Below the pieces are notes generated by a model. It was not told where the DNA came from, searched no databases, and saw nothing but the letters and a program-made list of their open reading frames with translations. Positions 898 through 34,528 of a stretch of DNA of 39,717 nt are shown in pieces (positions within the stretch are counted from its first letter, which is position 1; the number at the start of each line of letters is the position of its first letter). The position numbers and the translations under genes are program-made. Origin of the DNA: Carboxylicivirga caseinilyticus (lineage in GTDB: Bacteria; Bacteroidota; Bacteroidia; Bacteroidales; Marinilabiliaceae); NCBI GenBank assembly GCA_025499705.1, contig JAFMVE010000053.1, positions 1-39,717 on the forward strand, given 5' to 3'.

Positions 898-1069
898 AGC
901 AATTAATATTTGTGCCGAAATTAAATGAAACCTGCACACAAACAAAATTTAGATTCAAAGAATATATTTATTATAATTATTTCAGAATTTAGGTATTTTA
1001 ACATTGGATTAACATATTGATTGTCATAAAGCATTATTTTCGTGATTGGGACAAACTAAACTATTACAC

Positions 1070-1486
1070 ATGTGGACAAATGACCTATCAGTAAACAATG
1101 TCGAAATAGACAATGAACACAAAAAGTTATTCAATTTATTAACCAGTTTTTATGATGGTATAAAAAACAATTCACCAAAATTACAACTTCAGGAGTTGAT
1201 AAATGGATTGTTGGATTATACCAAAACGCATTTTGCTCGCGAAGAAGCATATATGAAACGAATCGGATATCCTGAGTTTGAGGATCATAAAAAACAACAT
1301 GAGGAATTTATTGAAAAAGCGCAGGCATTTCATACCAAAATATCTGATGGTAAAATGATTCTGTCGCTTGAAGTAACCAACTTTTTGAAGCAATGGTTGG
1401 TGAATCATATTAAGGGAACAGATCAGAAATATGCTCGTTTTGCGAGCGCAAATCAGGAAAAGGTAAATCAATTCTCTTATAATTAA
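1070..1486 (+). CDS. Bacteriohemerythrin, single-domain O2-binding protein
   Basis: A 138-residue four-helix hemerythrin that binds oxygen at a non-heme di-iron site. All seven canonical ligands are present in the right order: H17, H54, E58, H73, H77, H113 and D118 (numbering from the ATG at 1070). The frame is open upstream to a TTG at 1046, but the family begins at the tryptophan two residues from this ATG (MWTNDLSV), so 1070 is preferred. There is no signal peptide or fused signalling domain, so it is probably a cytoplasmic O2 carrier or sensor, or a protectant of oxygen-sensitive enzymes. It lies between divergent pssA and the his promoter, and no terminator is visible between it and the his leader. 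Confidence 0.9.
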   Translation: MWTNDLSVNNVEIDNEHKKLFNLLTSFYDGIKNNSPKLQLQELINGLLDYTKTHFAREEAYMKRIGYPEFEDHKKQHEEFIEKAQAFHTKISDGKMILSLEVTNFLKQWLVNHIKGTDQKYARFASANQEKVNQFSYN

Positions 1487-1507: not shown

Positions 1508-1538
1508 TTTGTAATTGTCGTTTTAACCTTTACATTTG
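1508..1538 (+). promoter_or_regulatory. Bacteroidota-type sigma-A promoter of the his operon
   Basis: TTTG at 1508-1511, a 19-nt spacer and TACATTTG at 1531-1538 match the Bacteroidota consensus TTTG-N19-TAnnTTTG exactly. Transcription should begin near 1543-1547, about 12-16 nt before the first leader-peptide ATG at 1559. This places both attenuators within the transcript. Confidence 0.8.
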
Positions 1539-1558: not shown

Positions 1559-1609
1559 ATGGCAAATCGTATCCATCATCATCATCATTTAAACCTGCAA
1601 GTACGGTAG
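1559..1609 (+). CDS. His operon leader peptide 1 (five consecutive His codons)
   Basis: The frame ATG...TAG encodes MANRIHHHHHLNLQVR (16 residues), with five CAT codons in a row at 1574-1588. It follows a near-consensus promoter and precedes a hairpin terminator and the hisG gene, as expected for a translated sensor of charged tRNA-His. No Shine-Dalgarno sequence is visible, which is normal for this phylum. The stop codon (1607-1609) lies inside the sequence that can form the antiterminator, so a ribosome reaching the stop would mask it. The peptide probably has no function of its own. Confidence 0.9.
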   Translation: MANRIHHHHHLNLQVR

Positions 1610-1678
1610 GCGGTGATTGATATGTGTATACTTTAAACAATATTTATCAAGGCTTACCAAAGTGGTAAGCCTTTTTTT
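1605..1678 (+). promoter_or_regulatory. His attenuator 1: antiterminator overlapping leader 1 stop, and terminator
   Basis: Terminator: GGCTTACCA (1651-1659) pairs perfectly with TGGTAAGCC (1663-1671) across a 3-nt loop, followed by seven T's. Antiterminator: GGTAGGC (1605-1611), spanning the leader stop codon, can pair with GCTTACC (1652-1658), giving 7 pairs with one G-U and consuming the 5' arm of the terminator. Inferred logic: a ribosome stalled on the His codons leaves 1605-1611 free, the antiterminator forms, and transcription continues. A ribosome that reaches the stop codon covers it, and the terminator forms. Confidence 0.85.
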
Positions 1679-1690
1679 ATTTTTATAAAC

Positions 1691-1747
1691 ATGAATTATA
1701 ACAGACATCATAAATTCCATCATTTACATACTAATCCTCAGGGATAA
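1691..1747 (+). CDS. His operon leader peptide 2 (five His codons in 18)
   Basis: A second short frame begins 12 nt after the T-tract of the first terminator and encodes MNYNRHHKFHHLHTNPQG (18 residues). Its five CAT codons are at 1706-1711, 1718-1723 and 1727-1729. The sequence is not a copy of leader 1, but the design is the same: the His codons sit upstream of a stop codon (1745-1747) lying inside an antiterminator arm. It can only be transcribed if the first terminator is read through. No ribosome binding site is visible. Confidence 0.85.
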   Translation: MNYNRHHKFHHLHTNPQG

Positions 1748-1807
1748 GTCGGAATTCTTATATAAAAAATTAAAGACAAGGCTTATCCGTTAACGGGTGA
1801 GCCTTTT
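1742..1807 (+). promoter_or_regulatory. His attenuator 2: antiterminator overlapping leader 2 stop, and terminator
   Basis: Terminator: AAGGCTTATCCG (1778-1789) pairs with CGGGTGAGCCTT (1794-1805) around TTAA, with two G-U pairs. The following T-run is short (four T's, then ATATT), so termination may be weaker than at attenuator 1. Antiterminator: GGATAAGTC (1742-1750), which contains the leader 2 stop, can pair with GGCTTATCC (1780-1788), giving nine pairs with one G-U and excluding the terminator. The hisG ATG follows 29 nt after the hairpin. Confidence 0.8.
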
Positions 1808-1836: not shown

Positions 1837-2697
1837 ATGGAAACCAAAATCAGAATTGCATTACAAAAAAAAGGTCGTTTAAATGAAGACTCTTTGAGAC
1901 TATTAAAAGAAGCAGGTATTAAATTCAATGCCGGCAGTGGTAAGCTGGTTGCTTCTTCACCAAATTTTCCAATTGAAGTTTTGTTTTTGCGTGATGATGA
2001 TATTCCGCAGACAGTTGCTGATTCGGTAGCTGATATAGGAATTGTTGGTGAAAACGAAATGGCAGAAAAAGGCTTTGACCTGACTATTGCAAAACGATTG
2101 GGCTTTAGTAAATGTCGTTTATCATTAGCAGTACCAAAAGCGGATGAGTACGCAGGAACAGAGTATTTTGAAGGAAAGAAAATTGCCACTTCTTACCCTG
2201 TTATTCTTGAAAAATTTCTGAAAGAAAAAAATATTAAAGCCGATATCCATGAGATAACTGGCTCAGTTGAAATTGCTCCGGGTATTGGATTGGCAGATGG
2301 TATTTGTGATATAGTTAGTTCGGGAAGTACATTGGTTGCAAACCGTTTAAAGGAAGTGGAAGTGGTAATGCAGTCTGAGGCTTTGTTGGTATCAGCACCA
2401 AACTTGAGTGCTGAGAAGCAGCAGTTGCTGGATGAAATTATCTTCCGCATAAACGCAGTAATGGCTGCAAATTCAAATAAATATATTTTGATGAATGTGC
2501 CTAACGATAAACTGGATGAGATTGTTGAAGTTTTACCAGGAATGAAAAGTCCGACTATTCTGCCATTGGCTGATAAAGGATGGAGTTCTGTGCATTCAGT
2601 AATTCAGGAAAAGAAATTTTGGGAAATCATTGGGCAGTTAAAGAATTTAGGTGCCGAAGGTATTTTGGTGATTCCAATCGAGAAAATGATCTTGTAA
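1837..2697 (+). CDS. hisG: ATP phosphoribosyltransferase, long form
   Basis: Catalyses the first step of histidine synthesis, joining PRPP and ATP to form phosphoribosyl-ATP. At 286 residues it is the long HisG type: a two-lobed catalytic domain to about residue 205, then a C-terminal ACT-like regulatory domain, so no HisZ partner is needed. The PRPP-binding loop is DGICDIVSSGSTL (154-166). It starts METKIRIALQKKGRL at an ATG 29 nt after attenuator 2. As the first structural gene, its transcription should depend on passing both attenuators. Feedback inhibition by histidine through the C-terminal domain is expected from the family and is not seen directly. Confidence 0.97.
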   Translation: METKIRIALQKKGRLNEDSLRLLKEAGIKFNAGSGKLVASSPNFPIEVLFLRDDDIPQTVADSVADIGIVGENEMAEKGFDLTIAKRLGFSKCRLSLAVPKADEYAGTEYFEGKKIATSYPVILEKFLKEKNIKADIHEITGSVEIAPGIGLADGICDIVSSGSTLVANRLKEVEVVMQSEALLVSAPNLSAEKQQLLDEIIFRINAVMAANSNKYILMNVPNDKLDEIVEVLPGMKSPTILPLADKGWSSVHSVIQEKKFWEIIGQLKNLGAEGILVIPIEKMIL

Positions 2698-2756: not shown

Positions 2757-4049
2757 ATGCAAAAAATAATATATCCTGAGAAAGAGTCATGGGCTACTTT
2801 GCTCGAAAGACCTGATAATGGACTGGAAGATTTGTTCGATACAGCTCGTGGAGTGTTAGACGATGTGAAGCGAAACAAAGATGCTGCATTAATCAAGTAT
2901 ACCAGAATGTTTGATGGTGTTGAACTGGATGATTTTAAGGTGATGCAGACAGAAATTGATGAGGCTTGCATTAATATTAGCAGCGATCTGAAAGAAGCCA
3001 TCTTAACGGCCAAGAAAAATATTGAGACTTTTCATAAAGCTCAGCTTCGCGAGGTAAAGGTGATTGAAACCATGCCTGGAGTTCAATGCTGGCAAAAAGC
3101 TGTACCAATCGAAAAAGTCGGACTTTATATTCCCGGAGGAACAGCTCCATTGTTTTCAACAGTATTAATGTTGGCTATTCCGGCAAAGATTGCAGGATGT
3201 AAAGAAATCGTGTTATGCACGCCAGCTGGTAAGGATGGAAAAATAAATCCGGCTATTTTGTATGCAGCCAACCTGGTTGGCGTTACGCAGATATTTAAGC
3301 TGGGAGGAATACAGGCAATCGGGGCAATGGCTTATGGAACAGAAACAGTTCCTTCTGTTTCAAAGATTTTTGGTCCGGGAAATCGCTTCGTAACTGCTGC
3401 TAAACAAGTAGTCAGTCTGAAAGATGTGGCAATTGATATGCCGGCTGGTCCATCGGAAGTGATGGTAATGGCTGATGAAAGTGCAGACCCGGCTTTTATT
3501 GCAGCCGATCTATTGTCACAAGCTGAACATGGTGCCGATAGTCAGGTGATTTTAGTTACTAACAACGAAGCTTTATTGGACGAGGTTGGTAGTACATTGG
3601 CTCAACAGCTTGAGCAACTATCGCGTAAAGAGGTGGCAGAAAAAGCCTTGGACAACAGTCGTATGATTGTATTGAAGTCGGTAGAAGAGATGTTGGAGAT
3701 GTGTAACGAATATGCTCCTGAACACCTGATTCTGTCGATGAGAGATGATGAAGAAATTGCTTCAAAAGTGGTAAATGCAGGATCTGTTTTTCTGGGTAAT
3801 TATTCTCCGGAGAGTGCAGGTGATTATGCCTCCGGTACCAATCATACATTGCCAACACATGGTTATGCCAAATCATACAGTGGTGTGAGTACAGAGAGTT
3901 TTATGAAGAAGATCACCTATCAGAAAATAACTGAGAAAGGTATTCAGAAACTTGGACCCGCAATTGAGATTATGGCAGCTGCTGAACAGTTGGATGCCCA
4001 CAAAAATGCTGTAACTGTTAGGCTTAAAAAAATTAAAGAGTCGAAATAA
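2757..4049 (+). CDS. hisD: Histidinol dehydrogenase
   Basis: Carries out the last two steps of the pathway, oxidising L-histidinol to L-histidine with two NAD+. It is 430 residues, the usual length. The four zinc-ligand positions of the family are present as Q255 and H258 (SQAEHG), D356 (DYASGTNH) and H415 (LDAHKNAV). The glycine-rich GPGNRFVTAAK segment near residues 203-213 is also typical. It begins 59 nt after hisG in the same direction and is followed by an unusually long gap (4050-4345) that carries a repeat before hisC. Cytoplasmic homodimer by family. Confidence 0.97.
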   Translation: MQKIIYPEKESWATLLERPDNGLEDLFDTARGVLDDVKRNKDAALIKYTRMFDGVELDDFKVMQTEIDEACINISSDLKEAILTAKKNIETFHKAQLREVKVIETMPGVQCWQKAVPIEKVGLYIPGGTAPLFSTVLMLAIPAKIAGCKEIVLCTPAGKDGKINPAILYAANLVGVTQIFKLGGIQAIGAMAYGTETVPSVSKIFGPGNRFVTAAKQVVSLKDVAIDMPAGPSEVMVMADESADPAFIAADLLSQAEHGADSQVILVTNNEALLDEVGSTLAQQLEQLSRKEVAEKALDNSRMIVLKSVEEMLEMCNEYAPEHLILSMRDDEEIASKVVNAGSVFLGNYSPESAGDYASGTNHTLPTHGYAKSYSGVSTESFMKKITYQKITEKGIQKLGPAIEIMAAAEQLDAHKNAVTVRLKKIKESK

Positions 4050-4345
4050 CATTGTAAGATTGACTTTTATTATGACGATTCGACCTCAATAGGGATGATT
4101 ATTGAGTTGAAGATGGACTTTAGTAAGATCGGGAAGCTGAGAACTTGTTCGAAGATCACCCGACCGCAATTAAGTACTTCAAAAGTCAGTAATCATTCAT
4201 ATTGCAGTCTTGATTTTCTTTGTTTCGTTTCTTGTATCAAGACAAGAAATGAAAAACCTTGCGGCTTGAGCGAAGAAAAAGAAAGGATTGATTATTTTGG
4301 TATGAAAAGAATGAAAGAATTAACTTTTTTAACCTGTATGCAAAA
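4050..4345. repeat. hisD-hisC spacer with dispersed hairpin-type repeat
   Basis: This 296-nt gap inside the operon has no convincing gene. It holds a strong hairpin, CGTTTCTTGT (4226-4235) with ACAAGAAATG (4242-4251) and loop ATCAAG. Pyrimidine-rich TTTTCTTTG sequence lies before it and purine-rich GAAGAAAAAGAAAG after it, so a larger imperfect inverted repeat surrounds the core. A smaller stem, CTCAATA (4085-4091) with TATTGAG (4100-4106), sits upstream. From memory, similar hairpins are scattered through Bacteroidota genomes; copy number cannot be checked here. The core has no T-tract, so it is probably not a terminator, and it might instead affect mRNA stability between hisD and hisC. Confidence 0.55.
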
Positions 4346-5383
4346 ATGAAAACGCTTAATGAGCTTTTACGATCAAATATAAAAGGGCTGAAGCCCTACT
4401 CTTCCGCTCGTGATGAATTTACCGGATCTGCATCCGTTTACCTGGATGCCAATGAAAATCCATTCAATCAGCCATACAACAGATATCCTGATCCGTATCA
4501 GCGAAATTTGAAAGCTAAAATTGCTACTATAAAAGGTGTTAAGGCTGACCAGATATTTTTGGGCAACGGCAGTGATGAACCCATTGATTTATTATTTCGT
4601 GCTTTTTGCGAGCCGGGTAAAGATAATGTGGTAAGTATTGATCCAACCTATGGTATGTATCAGGTTGCTGCCGATATCAATAATATTGAAGTACGTAAGG
4701 TTTTGTTGACCGAAGATTTTCAATTGGATGTAAACGCTCTTTTGGCTGCAACAGATGAGAATTCTAAATTATTGTTTTTGTGTTCACCCAATAATCCAAC
4801 AGGAAATTGCTTTAAAGAAGAAGATTTGTTAGCCTTAATTAAGGGGTTTGATGGAATTGTTGTGTTAGATGAAGCATACATTGACTTTGCTCCTGAGAAG
4901 AGTTTATTAAAGCGAATTGATGAATTTTCAAATTTAGTTGTGTTGCAGACCTTCTCAAAAGCATGGGGAATGGCTGGCATCCGACTGGGAATGGCATTTG
5001 CATCTGCTCCGATTATTAAAGTGTTGAGTAGTATTAAATATCCATATAATATTAATATACTTACGCAGGAGAAAGCTTCTGAACTGTTGGATAAAGAAGA
5101 GGATAAACATCAGTGGGTAGAGTTGTTGCTTAAAGAAAGAACCCGATTGGATGTTGATTTACAACAATTCTCTTTCGTGCAGAAGATTTATCCGTCAGAC
5201 GCTAACTATCTGCTGGTAAAAGTGGATGATGCAAAAGGGTTATACAACTATCTGGTTAATGAAGAAATCATCATACGCGACCGTTCCTCGGTTGCATTGT
5301 GTGCCGGTTGCTTAAGAATAACAGTTGGTACAGCTGATGAAAACAGCCAGTTGTTAAATGCATTGAAATCGTATCAGAAATAG
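4346..5383 (+). CDS. hisC: Histidinol-phosphate aminotransferase
   Basis: PLP enzyme that transfers the amino group of glutamate to imidazole-acetol phosphate, giving histidinol phosphate. At 345 residues it has normal HisC length for a class I/II aminotransferase. The PLP-binding lysine is K205 in TFSKAWGMAGIRLG; also seen are the N-terminal LDANENPFNQP motif, CSPNNPTGN in the cofactor site and DEAYIDFA. The ATG at 4346 gives the expected start. It is followed only 14 nt later by a secreted hydrolase gene rather than directly by hisB. Confidence 0.97.
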   Translation: MKTLNELLRSNIKGLKPYSSARDEFTGSASVYLDANENPFNQPYNRYPDPYQRNLKAKIATIKGVKADQIFLGNGSDEPIDLLFRAFCEPGKDNVVSIDPTYGMYQVAADINNIEVRKVLLTEDFQLDVNALLAATDENSKLLFLCSPNNPTGNCFKEEDLLALIKGFDGIVVLDEAYIDFAPEKSLLKRIDEFSNLVVLQTFSKAWGMAGIRLGMAFASAPIIKVLSSIKYPYNINILTQEKASELLDKEEDKHQWVELLLKERTRLDVDLQQFSFVQKIYPSDANYLLVKVDDAKGLYNYLVNEEIIIRDRSSVALCAGCLRITVGTADENSQLLNALKSYQK

Positions 5384-5397
5384 ATAAAGCCAACTCA

Positions 5398-6297
5398 ATG
5401 AAAAAGATCCAAATATTATTAAGTGTATTAATACTGACTACAAGTACAATGTTCGGTCAAAAAGCAAAAATCAACCTTTGGGAAGGTACTGCCCCTTTGA
5501 ATAAAGATGTGCAGGTTGAAGAGCAGGATATAAATAACCGTGTTTCACGAGTAACCGTTCCTCAGCTTTATCATTATCCTGTAAAAAGTAAAGAGGCAAA
5601 ACCAGCTATCATTATCATTCCTGGAGGAGGATATGCCCGTGAGGCTATCGATCATGAAGGTTATATGGCTGCCGAATGGTTCAATAAATTGGGATTTGAG
5701 GCATTTGTGTTAAAATACAGATTGCCGGATGATGACCTTTTTGATAACCCGGCTTATGTTCCTTTGATGGATGCTCAGCAAGCGGTTTACCTGGTTCGTT
5801 CAAAAGCCAAAGAGTTTAATATCGATCCAGCCAGAGTTGGTGTAATTGGTTTTTCAGCTGGTGGTCATTTAGCTGCCTCAGCTTCTACTCTGTTTACCAA
5901 TCCTGTTGATAAGAACAGATCACCGGAAGATGTCCGACCTGATTTTTCGATTTTGATGTATCCTGTCATTAGCATGGATAAGGCATGTACTCATATGGGT
6001 AGTCGGATAAATCTGATTGGAAATGATCCAGCTGTAAGTATGGTTGATTATTTCTCGTTGGAGAATCAGGTATCAGAAAAAACACCTGTTACTCTAATGG
6101 TCCATGCCATTGATGATGGTGCGGTGCCTGTTGAAAATACAGATCGATATGCCAAAAACCTATTTAACAAAGGTGGTGATGTAACCAAAGTAATACTTCC
6201 GATTGGAGGGCATGGATTTGGTTTTGCTCCTGATCGACCAGTTGCTTACTGGACTCAATATCTGGAAGTGTGGTTAAAAACCAATGTGATTAAATAA
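5398..6297 (+). CDS. Secreted alpha/beta-hydrolase, acetyl-esterase-like
   Basis: A 299-residue protein with an N-terminal signal peptide (hydrophobic residues 4-19, probable cleavage after FGQ), so it is exported to the periplasm or beyond. It is an alpha/beta-hydrolase: oxyanion segment PGGGY (75-79), nucleophile S153 in GFSAGGH, acid D239 or D240 in HAIDDGAVP, and base H272 in GGHGFGF. The PGGGY form and size resemble BD-FAE-type and acetylxylan-type carbohydrate esterases. The substrate cannot be told from sequence. It sits 14 nt after hisC and before hisB on the same strand, inside the his operon, though nothing about it suggests a role in histidine synthesis. It may be a passenger co-transcribed with his genes. 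Confidence 0.85.
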   Translation: MKKIQILLSVLILTTSTMFGQKAKINLWEGTAPLNKDVQVEEQDINNRVSRVTVPQLYHYPVKSKEAKPAIIIIPGGGYAREAIDHEGYMAAEWFNKLGFEAFVLKYRLPDDDLFDNPAYVPLMDAQQAVYLVRSKAKEFNIDPARVGVIGFSAGGHLAASASTLFTNPVDKNRSPEDVRPDFSILMYPVISMDKACTHMGSRINLIGNDPAVSMVDYFSLENQVSEKTPVTLMVHAIDDGAVPVENTDRYAKNLFNKGGDVTKVILPIGGHGFGFAPDRPVAYWTQYLEVWLKTNVIK

Positions 6298-6491: not shown

Positions 6492-7625
6492 ATGCAAAAG
6501 AAAAAGATACTATTTATTGATCGGGATGGAACACTTATAGTGGAACCTCCTGTTGATTATCAGGTTGACAGTCTTGAAAAACTGGAGTTCTACCCTGCTG
6601 TTTTTCAGAATTTATCGAAAATAGCTCAACAGCTCGATTTTTACCTGGCCATGGTTACCAATCAGGATGGACTGGGAACGGCTTCGTTTCCCGAGGACAC
6701 TTTCTGGCCTGCTCAGAATAAAATGATGAAAGCCCTCGAAAATGAAGGAATCATTTTTGATAAGGTACACATCGATCCGACTCTTCCCGAAGAGAATGCC
6801 CCTTCGCGTAAACCGGGTACAGCAATGCTGACTGAGTATATCGAAGGTGATTACGATTTGGAAGGATCCTTTGTGATAGGTGATCGCATTACGGATGTGC
6901 AAATGGCAAAGAATCTGGGCTGTAAGGCTATCTTGCTGCAAGGTAAAGAAGCCGGTGAAAAGATGTTGGCCGAAGCAGGATTAGCAGATGTTTGTGTCTT
7001 GCTTACTGATCAATGGAACGAGGTGGCGGCTTTTCTGTTTAAGTCGGAGCGTAGTGCTGAGGTGGTACGTTCTACTGCGGAAACCAGTATAAAGGTGGCG
7101 GTCAACCTGGATGGAACGGGTAAATGCAATATCTCAACCGGACTAAACTTCTTCGATCATATGTTGGAGCAGATCGGTCGTCACTCAGGATGTGATTTAA
7201 CGGTTGAGGTCAATGGTGACTTACATGTTGACGAGCATCATACCATGGAAGATACAGCTATTGTGCTGGGTGAAGCTTTTAAAAAGGCTTTGGGCGATAA
7301 GCGTGGTATCGAACGTTATGGTTTTTGCCTGCCAATGGATGATTGTCTGGCACAGGTAGCTATTGATTTTGGTGGACGACCATGGTTGGTGTGGGAAACC
7401 GAGTTTAAGCGCGAGATGATTGGCGATACTCCTACCGAGATGTTCCATCATTTCTTCAAGAGTTTCTCCGATGCGGCAGCATGTAACCTTAATATAAAAG
7501 CTGAAGGAGCCAACGAGCATCATAAAATAGAAGGTATCTTTAAAGCACTGGCACGTGCCATCAGGGCGGCCATTCGCAAAGATCCATATAATGATCAACT
7601 TCCTAGTACAAAGGGGATGCTGTAG
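6492..7625 (+). CDS. hisB: Bifunctional histidinol-phosphatase / imidazoleglycerol-phosphate dehydratase
   Basis: A two-domain enzyme for two non-consecutive steps of histidine synthesis. Residues 1-165 form a HAD phosphatase (nucleophile D10 and D12 in [13 protein letters not shown], and GDRITD at 130-135). Residues 185-377 form the IGP dehydratase with metal-binding DEHHTMED (247-254) and NEHHKIE (341-347). Length and order match the enterobacterial fusion. One feature differs: the zinc loop of the phosphatase domain, which carries Cys, His, Cys, Cys in E. coli HisB, reads D95, T97, A103 and S105 here, so no zinc can be held in that way. The catalytic aspartates are intact, so activity is still expected. 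It is the last his gene of this cluster and faces a convergent gene across a hairpin. Confidence 0.96.
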
Positions 7626-33159: not shown

Positions 33160-34473
<1,314 letters not shown>

Positions 34474-34492
34474 TTGAAACTGAGATATAGTG

Positions 34493-34528
34493 AAGAGGCT
34501 GTCTGTTTTCAGACAGCCTCTTTTTTTT
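34493..34528 (+). terminator. Strong terminator after eno
   Basis: AAGAGGCTGTCTG (34493-34505) pairs perfectly with CAGACAGCCTCTT (34510-34522) around a TTTT loop, followed by further T's to 34528. This 13-bp stem is the strongest terminator in the window. The sequence up to gltA (34529-34760) contains no gene and only a one-mismatch -7 element (TACCTTTA near 34702). Confidence 0.9.

Follow-up and report, generated by a model that had tools for sequence, protein, structure and literature searches.

The his operon and its leader

The 39,717-nt stretch of Carboxylicivirga caseinilyticus DNA analyzed here (the window) contains a his operon whose leader, upstream of hisG, carries two complete His leader-peptide attenuators. 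Cognate biosynthetic genes (hisG, hisD, hisC, and hisB) lie downstream of both units (Table 1), and the closest named relatives of the encoded HisG come from Carboxylicivirga linearis (93%) and uncultured Carboxylicivirga. An 84-codon ORF (4095–4349, plus strand) between hisD and hisC overlaps the hisC start by 4 nt and may be due to chance.

Each unit combines a short His-rich ORF, a terminator hairpin, and an alternative antiterminator whose 5' arm (arm 2) spans the stop codon of the ORF. Histidine accounts for 5 of the 16 residues of leader 1 and 5 of the 18 residues of leader 2. In unit 1, the antiterminator is formed by positions 1605–1611 (GGTAGGC) and 1652–1658 (GCTTACC), which make seven pairs including one G-U; in unit 2, positions 1742–1750 (GGATAAGTC) and 1780–1788 (GGCTTATCC) make nine pairs, again including one G-U. 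The terminator stems comprise 11 and 12 pairs, with fold z-scores of -5.5 and -5.9. Seven T close the first hairpin and four T the second, the first two being stem bases in both cases, and the four T are followed by ATATT. A first-pass annotation had proposed two complete His attenuators in series, each with an antiterminator arm overlapping the stop codon of its own leader; every one of these elements, both pairings included, is present at the coordinates that it gave.

Table 1. Positions of the leader elements and of the neighboring genes in the window.
Feature	Position	Strand	Details
Hemerythrin gene (upstream)	1046–1486	+	
Predicted promoter, Bacteroidota type	1508–1538	+	TTTG (1508–1511), N19, TACATTTG (1531–1538)
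Leader ORF 1	1559–1609	+	MANRIHHHHHLNLQVR; five CAT His codons, 1574–1588
Possible arm 1, unit 1	1594–1598	+	CCTGC pairing with 1606–1610; weak
Arm 2, unit 1 (antiterminator 5' arm)	1605–1611	+	UAG stop inside arm
Terminator hairpin, unit 1	1649–1673	+	Arm 3 with 1652–1658, arm 4, then T tract
Leader ORF 2	1691–1747	+	MNYNRHHKFHHLHTNPQG; His codons at 1706, 1709, 1718, 1721, 1727, all CAT
Possible arm 1, unit 2	1730–1737	+	ACTAATCC pairing within 1742–1749; weak
Arm 2, unit 2 (antiterminator 5' arm)	1742–1750	+	UAA stop inside arm
Terminator hairpin, unit 2	1778–1805	+	Arm 3 with 1780–1788, arm 4, short T tract
hisG, first gene of operon	1837–2697	+	TIGR00070 (190.7 bits), TIGR03455
hisD	2757–4049	+	TIGR00069 (542.5 bits)
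hisC	4346–5383	+	TIGR01141 (354.6 bits)
Alpha/beta hydrolase gene (BD-FAE, acetylesterase-like)	5398–6297	+	Inside his operon, between hisC and hisB
hisB (bifunctional)	6492–7625	+	NF003937 (533.3 bits)

Tandem attenuators at other operons of this genome were considered and rejected, the ilv and trp leaders being single. The stretch around ilvD holds a single attenuator (L199:1280-1415) with leader MKFNLTLVLDIIIILLVIIS (L199:1280-1342), and trp has one leader, MNLITKNTGWWHHLYLSTRG, with a strong terminator (L263, G000:C112:152246-152368, upstream of trpE), read by eye. In this trp leader, two Trp codons are directly followed by two His codons. No attenuator was found in the stretch upstream of one homoserine dehydrogenase gene, and no convincing leader flanks the other amino-acid genes searched, some of whose starts may fall outside the stretches read.

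Distribution of single and tandem units

Three genome searches, together with one named collection, supplied the stretches upstream of hisG. A hisG start was found in 197 of 198 loci (the exception being L170), of which 167 are unique. We scored these with a detector that calls a unit where a His-rich ORF lies at most 110 nt from a terminator and a duplex of at least six pairs can form between the end of the ORF and the 5' side of the terminator. Two complete units were detected in 18 unique loci, one in 94, and none in 55; the detector misses some, and a His leader whose terminator was not scored is present in several of the 55. Across the Bacteroidales sampled here, His leader attenuators are a common feature upstream of hisG.

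In the family to which the window belongs, hisG was found in 68 of 71 genomes, and the tandem arrangement in 15 of the 55 upstream stretches read. These 15 genomes (group A) comprise 13 of the 14 members of the genus (g1), one genome of g9 (L009), and one of g14 (L021, Marinilabiliaceae bacterium JC017), so the arrangement is conserved in close relatives. L009 was counted as tandem by eye, its second ORF ending 15 nt further on. The C. linearis locus (L002/L031) carries both units.

For the rest of the order, we considered 71 genomes (26 loci, 40 regions, and 5 more), with L117 and L170 lacking a usable upstream stretch. Sixty-six of them represent the better-matching hisG genes from a sample of 295 genomes, 144 of which gave a match; the other five, picked for their closeness to tandem genomes, form a biased set. 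Two His leaders occur in 10 of the 71 (8/66 plus 2/5). These genomes (group B: L129, L138, L160, L167, L176, L184, L186, L193, L244, and L251) fall into six families (f97, f64, f14, f47, f115, and f40). A terminator was detected for both leaders in 9 of the 10, the second terminator of L184 being visible by eye only. Antiterminators were found only in part and mostly as short duplexes, and group B is therefore less certain than group A. The arm sequences of group B differ, many containing TGCA, and in several of its first leaders a lone His codon precedes the His run. No two complete units were detected among the other named loci (L063–L110, duplicates counted once), and two His leaders were seen in none of 29 wider-phylum loci (the best-matching 29 of 171 genomes with a match). 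The first-pass annotation had contrasted this leader with classical his operons, which have one such unit. Among the genomes that we examined, a single unit is indeed the commoner state, yet this genome is not alone in its doubled leader, since other families also include members with two His leaders.

Chance occurrence and likeness of the two units

On both strands of the window, the detector returned these two units only. When the 340-nt leaders of 14 tandem genomes were dinucleotide-shuffled (1400 shuffles), two units never occurred (0/1400), one full unit occurred in 2, and at least one His leader in 66. The leader has no Rfam family match at gathering score. His_leader, an Rfam leader family, is absent from the 15 Rfam matches returned to E = 5, all of which fall far below their gathering scores, and no match to the T-box covariance model was found in the leader.

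We also built a covariance model from 23 unit-1 and single-unit sequences, with no unit 2 included; its E-values are rough. In the 5.6-Mb genome of the organism itself (150 of 6503 first-look candidates scored), this model found unit 2 at E = 3.3e-4, with the next match at 0.10. Unit 1 was found as well, being itself a training sequence. Unit 2 was recovered in all 15 group-A genomes (E from 8e-10 to 7e-6 in a search over 26 sources). In group B, 19 of the 20 units were matched at E up to 0.02, and unit 1 of L244 at 0.74. Since the model partly matches the reverse strand of terminators, with E down to 8e-4, the weaker group-B matches are not decisive. Within the window, a weak match at 34464–34527 (E = 0.038) is an ordinary terminator after the ORF at 33172–34473.

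Whole-unit alignments of unit 1 with unit 2 score 6–10 sd above shuffled sequences, with the shared hairpin and His codons supplying much of this, and alignments of the linkers only score 0.7–3.9 sd, positive in 15 of 15 genomes. A common origin of the two units is thus likely but short of proven.

A single predicted promoter upstream of both units

The Bacteroidota promoter consensus described in PMC7366714 (TAnnTTTG/TTTG) is matched perfectly, as TTTG-N19-TAnnTTTG, 20 nt before the ATG of leader 1. A perfect N19 match lies 20–23 nt before leader 1 in all 15 group-A genomes. No comparable site lies between the units, either in the window or elsewhere in group A: the best inter-unit site in the 15 genomes reaches at most 5/6 in one box or 3/4 in the other, never both, and in 11 of the 15 it falls at most 13 nt from the leader-2 ATG. 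A second promoter between the units was thus rejected for group A. Given that the promoter precedes leader 1 only, its position suggests that both units would be on one transcript, with unit 2 made only after read-through of unit 1.

We considered two readings under which the units would not act in this way. In the first, each attenuator would have its own promoter, and unit 2 would sit on a second, shorter transcript, not in series with unit 1. Partial motif matches between the units of two group-B genomes (L129, 4/6 and 4/4; L244, 5/6 and 4/4) are compatible with this reading, but the perfect promoter before leader 1 throughout group A and the poor inter-unit sites there make it very improbable. 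In the second, terminator 1 would mainly end transcription of the upstream hemerythrin gene, leaving unit 2 as the real his attenuator. The hemerythrin gene lies on the same strand, is found upstream in 12 of the 15 group-A loci, and is followed by no plus-strand terminator in our scan of the interval up to leader 1. Nevertheless, a consensus promoter lies in that same interval, three tandem genomes (L005, L006, and L009) have no hemerythrin gene in the flank examined, and unit 1 possesses a full antiterminator and a His leader. We give the hemerythrin reading hardly any weight.

Conservation of the antiterminators

The antiterminator pairing was compared in unit 1 of group A together with eight single units. 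It is formed in 89.7% of 203 cells, versus at most 49% when slid, and 12 cells have changed on both sides. Only 1 of 500 shuffles reached the observed number of paired cells, and only 1 of 500 the covariation score; the counts of pairs with changes on both sides (195/500 shuffles as high) and of pair types (316/500) did not exceed the shuffles. For unit 2, all 135 of 135 cells are paired (at most 53% when slid) and five of the nine pairs vary, with one compensated change and a score reached by 33 of 500 shuffles. Compensated changes being few and the shuffle controls partly unbeaten, covariation of the antiterminators is modest; this applies most to unit 2, where the arm hardly varies. Loss of this pairing in relatives had been set out beforehand as grounds for abandoning the attenuator reading; the pairing is retained.

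The placement of the His codons is also conserved. Across the 15 group-A genomes, unit 1 contains 3–6 His codons and unit 2 contains 5–6. The last His codon of the cluster begins 14–16 nt before arm 2 in all 15 second units and 17–19 nt before it in 14 of the 15 first units, the remaining one (L014) having 23 nt. Stray later His codons beyond the cluster occur in unit 1 of L015 and in both units of L021.

Predicted folding with and without a ribosome

We folded the units with an assumed ribosome footprint extending 12 nt 3' of the first base of the A-site codon, the 5' edge of the ribosome being ignored. With the ribosome placed on the final His codon of the cluster, the structure predicted for RNA still lacking arm 4 contains the antiterminator in 38 of 38 units, with all of its pairs in 37 and 8 of 9 in unit 1 of L011. 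By the same masking rule, a ribosome at the stop codon covers arm 2 in 38 of 38 units; unit 2 of L009 is in doubt because its ORF ends 17 nt past arm 2 and the rule ignores the 5' edge.

At equilibrium, the terminators of the window are predicted to be more stable than the antiterminators (-19.4 versus -17.2 kcal/mol in unit 1 and -20.1 versus -14.2 kcal/mol in unit 2). The finished terminator is the more stable structure in 36 of the 38 units, with one tie and one opposite case, and its probability is high in most units whatever the ribosome position. Since the terminator prevails once arm 4 has been made, the choice between the two folds has to be a kinetic one.

With no ribosome, the antiterminator is still favored before arm 4 in 29 of the 38 units. 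The possible pairing of arms 1 and 2, which is weak, is formed in 87.0% of cells in unit 1 (34–62% when slid) and 92.0% in unit 2 (at most 56% when slid), shows no covariation in either, and does not outcompete pairing of arms 2 and 3 in 29 of the 38 units. Superattenuation, or a default-off state through arms 1 and 2, is therefore unsupported by folding. It follows that read-through should result when a ribosome departs early from the stop codon or fails to load at all.

Evolutionary history

The history of the doubling was examined on a HisG tree of 95 rows built by a quick method, in which 33 of 92 inner branches have support below 80. The Carboxylicivirga clade has 15 rows, of which 14 are tandem. 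By its HisG, the sole single-unit member of the genus (L004, genome G018) is nested inside this clade, and the unit that it has most resembles unit 1 of its relatives; unit 2 has therefore probably been lost in L004. This genome has no hemerythrin gene in the flank examined, and its terminator (-19.0 kcal/mol) is more stable than that of unit 1 in L001–L003 (-14.8 to -15.2 kcal/mol). L021 branches elsewhere in the family, beside three single-unit genomes (support 90). Its two units align with unit 1 and unit 2 of Carboxylicivirga, respectively (mean scores of 43 and 41, versus 25 and 30 crosswise), and it also has a hemerythrin neighbor. Together, these features point to one origin of the group-A doubling with later losses, or to transfer. 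The doubling in group B, which lies outside group A and has different arms, may be either older or independent. With all other rows called single, the HisG tree needs at least six changes of state.

Because L004 lives with one unit, the second unit is dispensable. Such an example, which indicates that one unit suffices, raises the question of whether one of the two is the working attenuator and the other a decaying or neutral duplicate, particularly as duplication would give such a layout without selection. This explanation is difficult to reconcile with the pattern of change in group A. Unit 2 retains its ORF, His cluster, 14–16 nt spacing, terminator, and every antiterminator cell, while its linker and non-His residues change; unit 1 is likewise conserved, and both persist in 13 of the 14 genus members. 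We therefore consider a duplicate without function improbable.

Discussion

Sequence and comparison give the anatomy of this leader, its sole promoter before leader 1, and the conservation, geometry, and likeness of its units. From these we infer a start site, translation of the leaders, stalling, termination, and multiplication of the two decisions. Taken together, we think it quite probable that the his transcript carries two ribosome-mediated attenuators of the same specificity in series, whose read-through would multiply and whose combined response would be steeper than that of one.

In the proposed mechanism, a single his-operon transcript would start near position 1545. When charged tRNA-His is plentiful, the ribosome would reach the end of the leader and cover arm 2, allowing arms 3 and 4 to form the terminator. 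When it is scarce, the ribosome would stall on the His codons and leave arm 2 uncovered, the distance of 14–19 nt (23 in one genome) between the last His codon and arm 2 keeping the arm clear of the stalled ribosome. The free arm 2 could then capture arm 3 ahead of the synthesis of arm 4, letting RNA polymerase continue. Because RNA polymerase must pass both decisions before hisG, the read-through probabilities should multiply, and multiplied repression would thus follow from the serial layout. Serial decisions could lower a basal leak, such as that arising when release of the ribosome at the stop codon frees arm 2, and could steepen the response into a pseudo-cooperative switch.

Early ribosome release at the stop codon is described as a leak in PMC1183508, and in our view multiplication of two such leaks would be the likeliest benefit of doubling. 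As an illustration, and not as evidence, we built a race model from the E. coli rates given in PMC1183508 and decision rules of our own. In this illustration, unstarved read-through came to 0.25 for the pair, against 0.43 and 0.58 for the units taken singly. With slower release, the illustrative values fell to 0.32 and 0.53 alone and 0.17 for the pair, and all rose to ~1 on starvation. Doubling as compensation for weak terminators was rejected, as no difference was seen between 30 tandem and 32 single stems (p = 0.59).

The two units might instead sense different degrees or kinds of starvation, forming a graded device with two thresholds. This was suggested by the window, where the five His codons of unit 1 are contiguous, those of unit 2 are interrupted, and the T runs differ. 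Neither difference is conserved. Runs of at least four His codons occur in both positions, in 11 of the 15 first units and in 9 of the 15 second units. The four-T run of unit 2 is confined to the window and the two genomes closest to it, with at least six T in each of the remaining 12. Paired comparisons over the 15 genomes likewise gave no difference between the units, whether by the number of T in the tail (p = 0.32) or by the energy of the stem (p = 0.23). Comparison thus lends no support to the proposal of the first-pass annotation that the two may respond to different degrees of tRNA-His charging. Moreover, a stall at any His codon of either cluster should free arm 2. For these reasons we regard two thresholds as unlikely, though less so than a neutral duplicate, and favor two attenuators of the same specificity in series.

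A further possibility is a relay between the units, in which the freed 3' terminator arm of unit 1 (GGTAAGCCTT) would pair with the 5' arm of terminator 2 (AAGGCTTATC) and bias unit 2 to read-through. If true, this would couple the units and make the switch truly cooperative, beyond merely serial. The predicted energy of the cross-unit pairing lies between -12 and -15 kcal/mol in 14 of the 15 genomes and is -9.5 kcal/mol in L021, and it is stronger than, or within 1 kcal/mol of, the unit 2 antiterminator in 9 of the 15. However, the energies are the same whether the arms come from their own or from swapped species (-13.3 versus -13.5 kcal/mol), which gives no sign of co-evolution, and the arm motif common to both units might by itself account for the pairing; as a selected feature, the pairing was rejected on this ground. 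Once terminator 2 is complete, its local hairpin beats the cross-unit pairing in three of the four genomes folded. We therefore view a relay as doubtful at best.

Other Bacteroidales have single His leader attenuators; those in the family share with the tandem pair the arm motif, the promoter spacing, and the His-to-arm distance. Bacteroidetes attenuators are reportedly the subject of a paper by Lopatovskaya and others. Our searches of open-access text turned up no previous description of serial leader-peptide attenuators that share one amino acid.

His leader attenuators are described in Proteobacteria and some Firmicutes (PMC9413887; PMC2965389), and in Flavobacterium, control of amino-acid operons by leader-peptide attenuation has been inferred (PMC9723704). 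The gammaproteobacterial his attenuator resembles the units described here in its His-rich leader peptide, its alternative antiterminator and terminator, and the position of hisG as the first gene. In the account of PMC9413887, however, it has one leader peptide, whereas here there are two in series, with short arms, an arm 2 placed over the stop codon, and no credible Rfam match.

Several known systems are doubled in other ways. Tandem pseudo-cooperative riboswitches (for example, TPP and c-di-GMP-I; PMC9481103) are likewise two complete serial regulators that respond to one signal, and same-ligand serial riboswitches are expected in that account to give steeper curves, but their sensor is an aptamer and not a ribosome translating a leader peptide. 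Double T-boxes, as described in PMC9413887 and PMC7583486, are also two serial units sensing the charging of the same tRNA, and a sharper response has been suggested for them, although PMC7583486 calls the mode of action of tandem T-boxes unknown. T-boxes bind tRNA directly, whereas the his leader has no T-box match. The Salmonella mgtCBR leader contains two short ORFs with attenuator-like structures, but its signals differ (ATP and proline) and it is termed a singular example in PMC3641672; here the same amino acid is read twice. The rimP leader of some Gammaproteobacteria has two serial terminators, the upstream one with a possible antiterminator; unlike the his leader, it is not an amino-acid leader-peptide system as described in PMC2965389. 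In engineered systems, placing two synthetic attenuators in series is described as improving dynamic range (PMC3753616).

The his leader of Carboxylicivirga appears to be a naturally occurring example of one kind of leader-peptide attenuator placed twice in a row to read a single signal, an arrangement seen in two separate sets of Bacteroidales. It allows a direct test of whether a doubled ribosome-sensed switch sharpens control, as is thought for doubled riboswitches, and the genus offers a ready comparison, with near relatives that have two units and one that has the first only. For these marine bacteria, the tandem pair looks like a natural way of tightening and sharpening control by doubling the switch.
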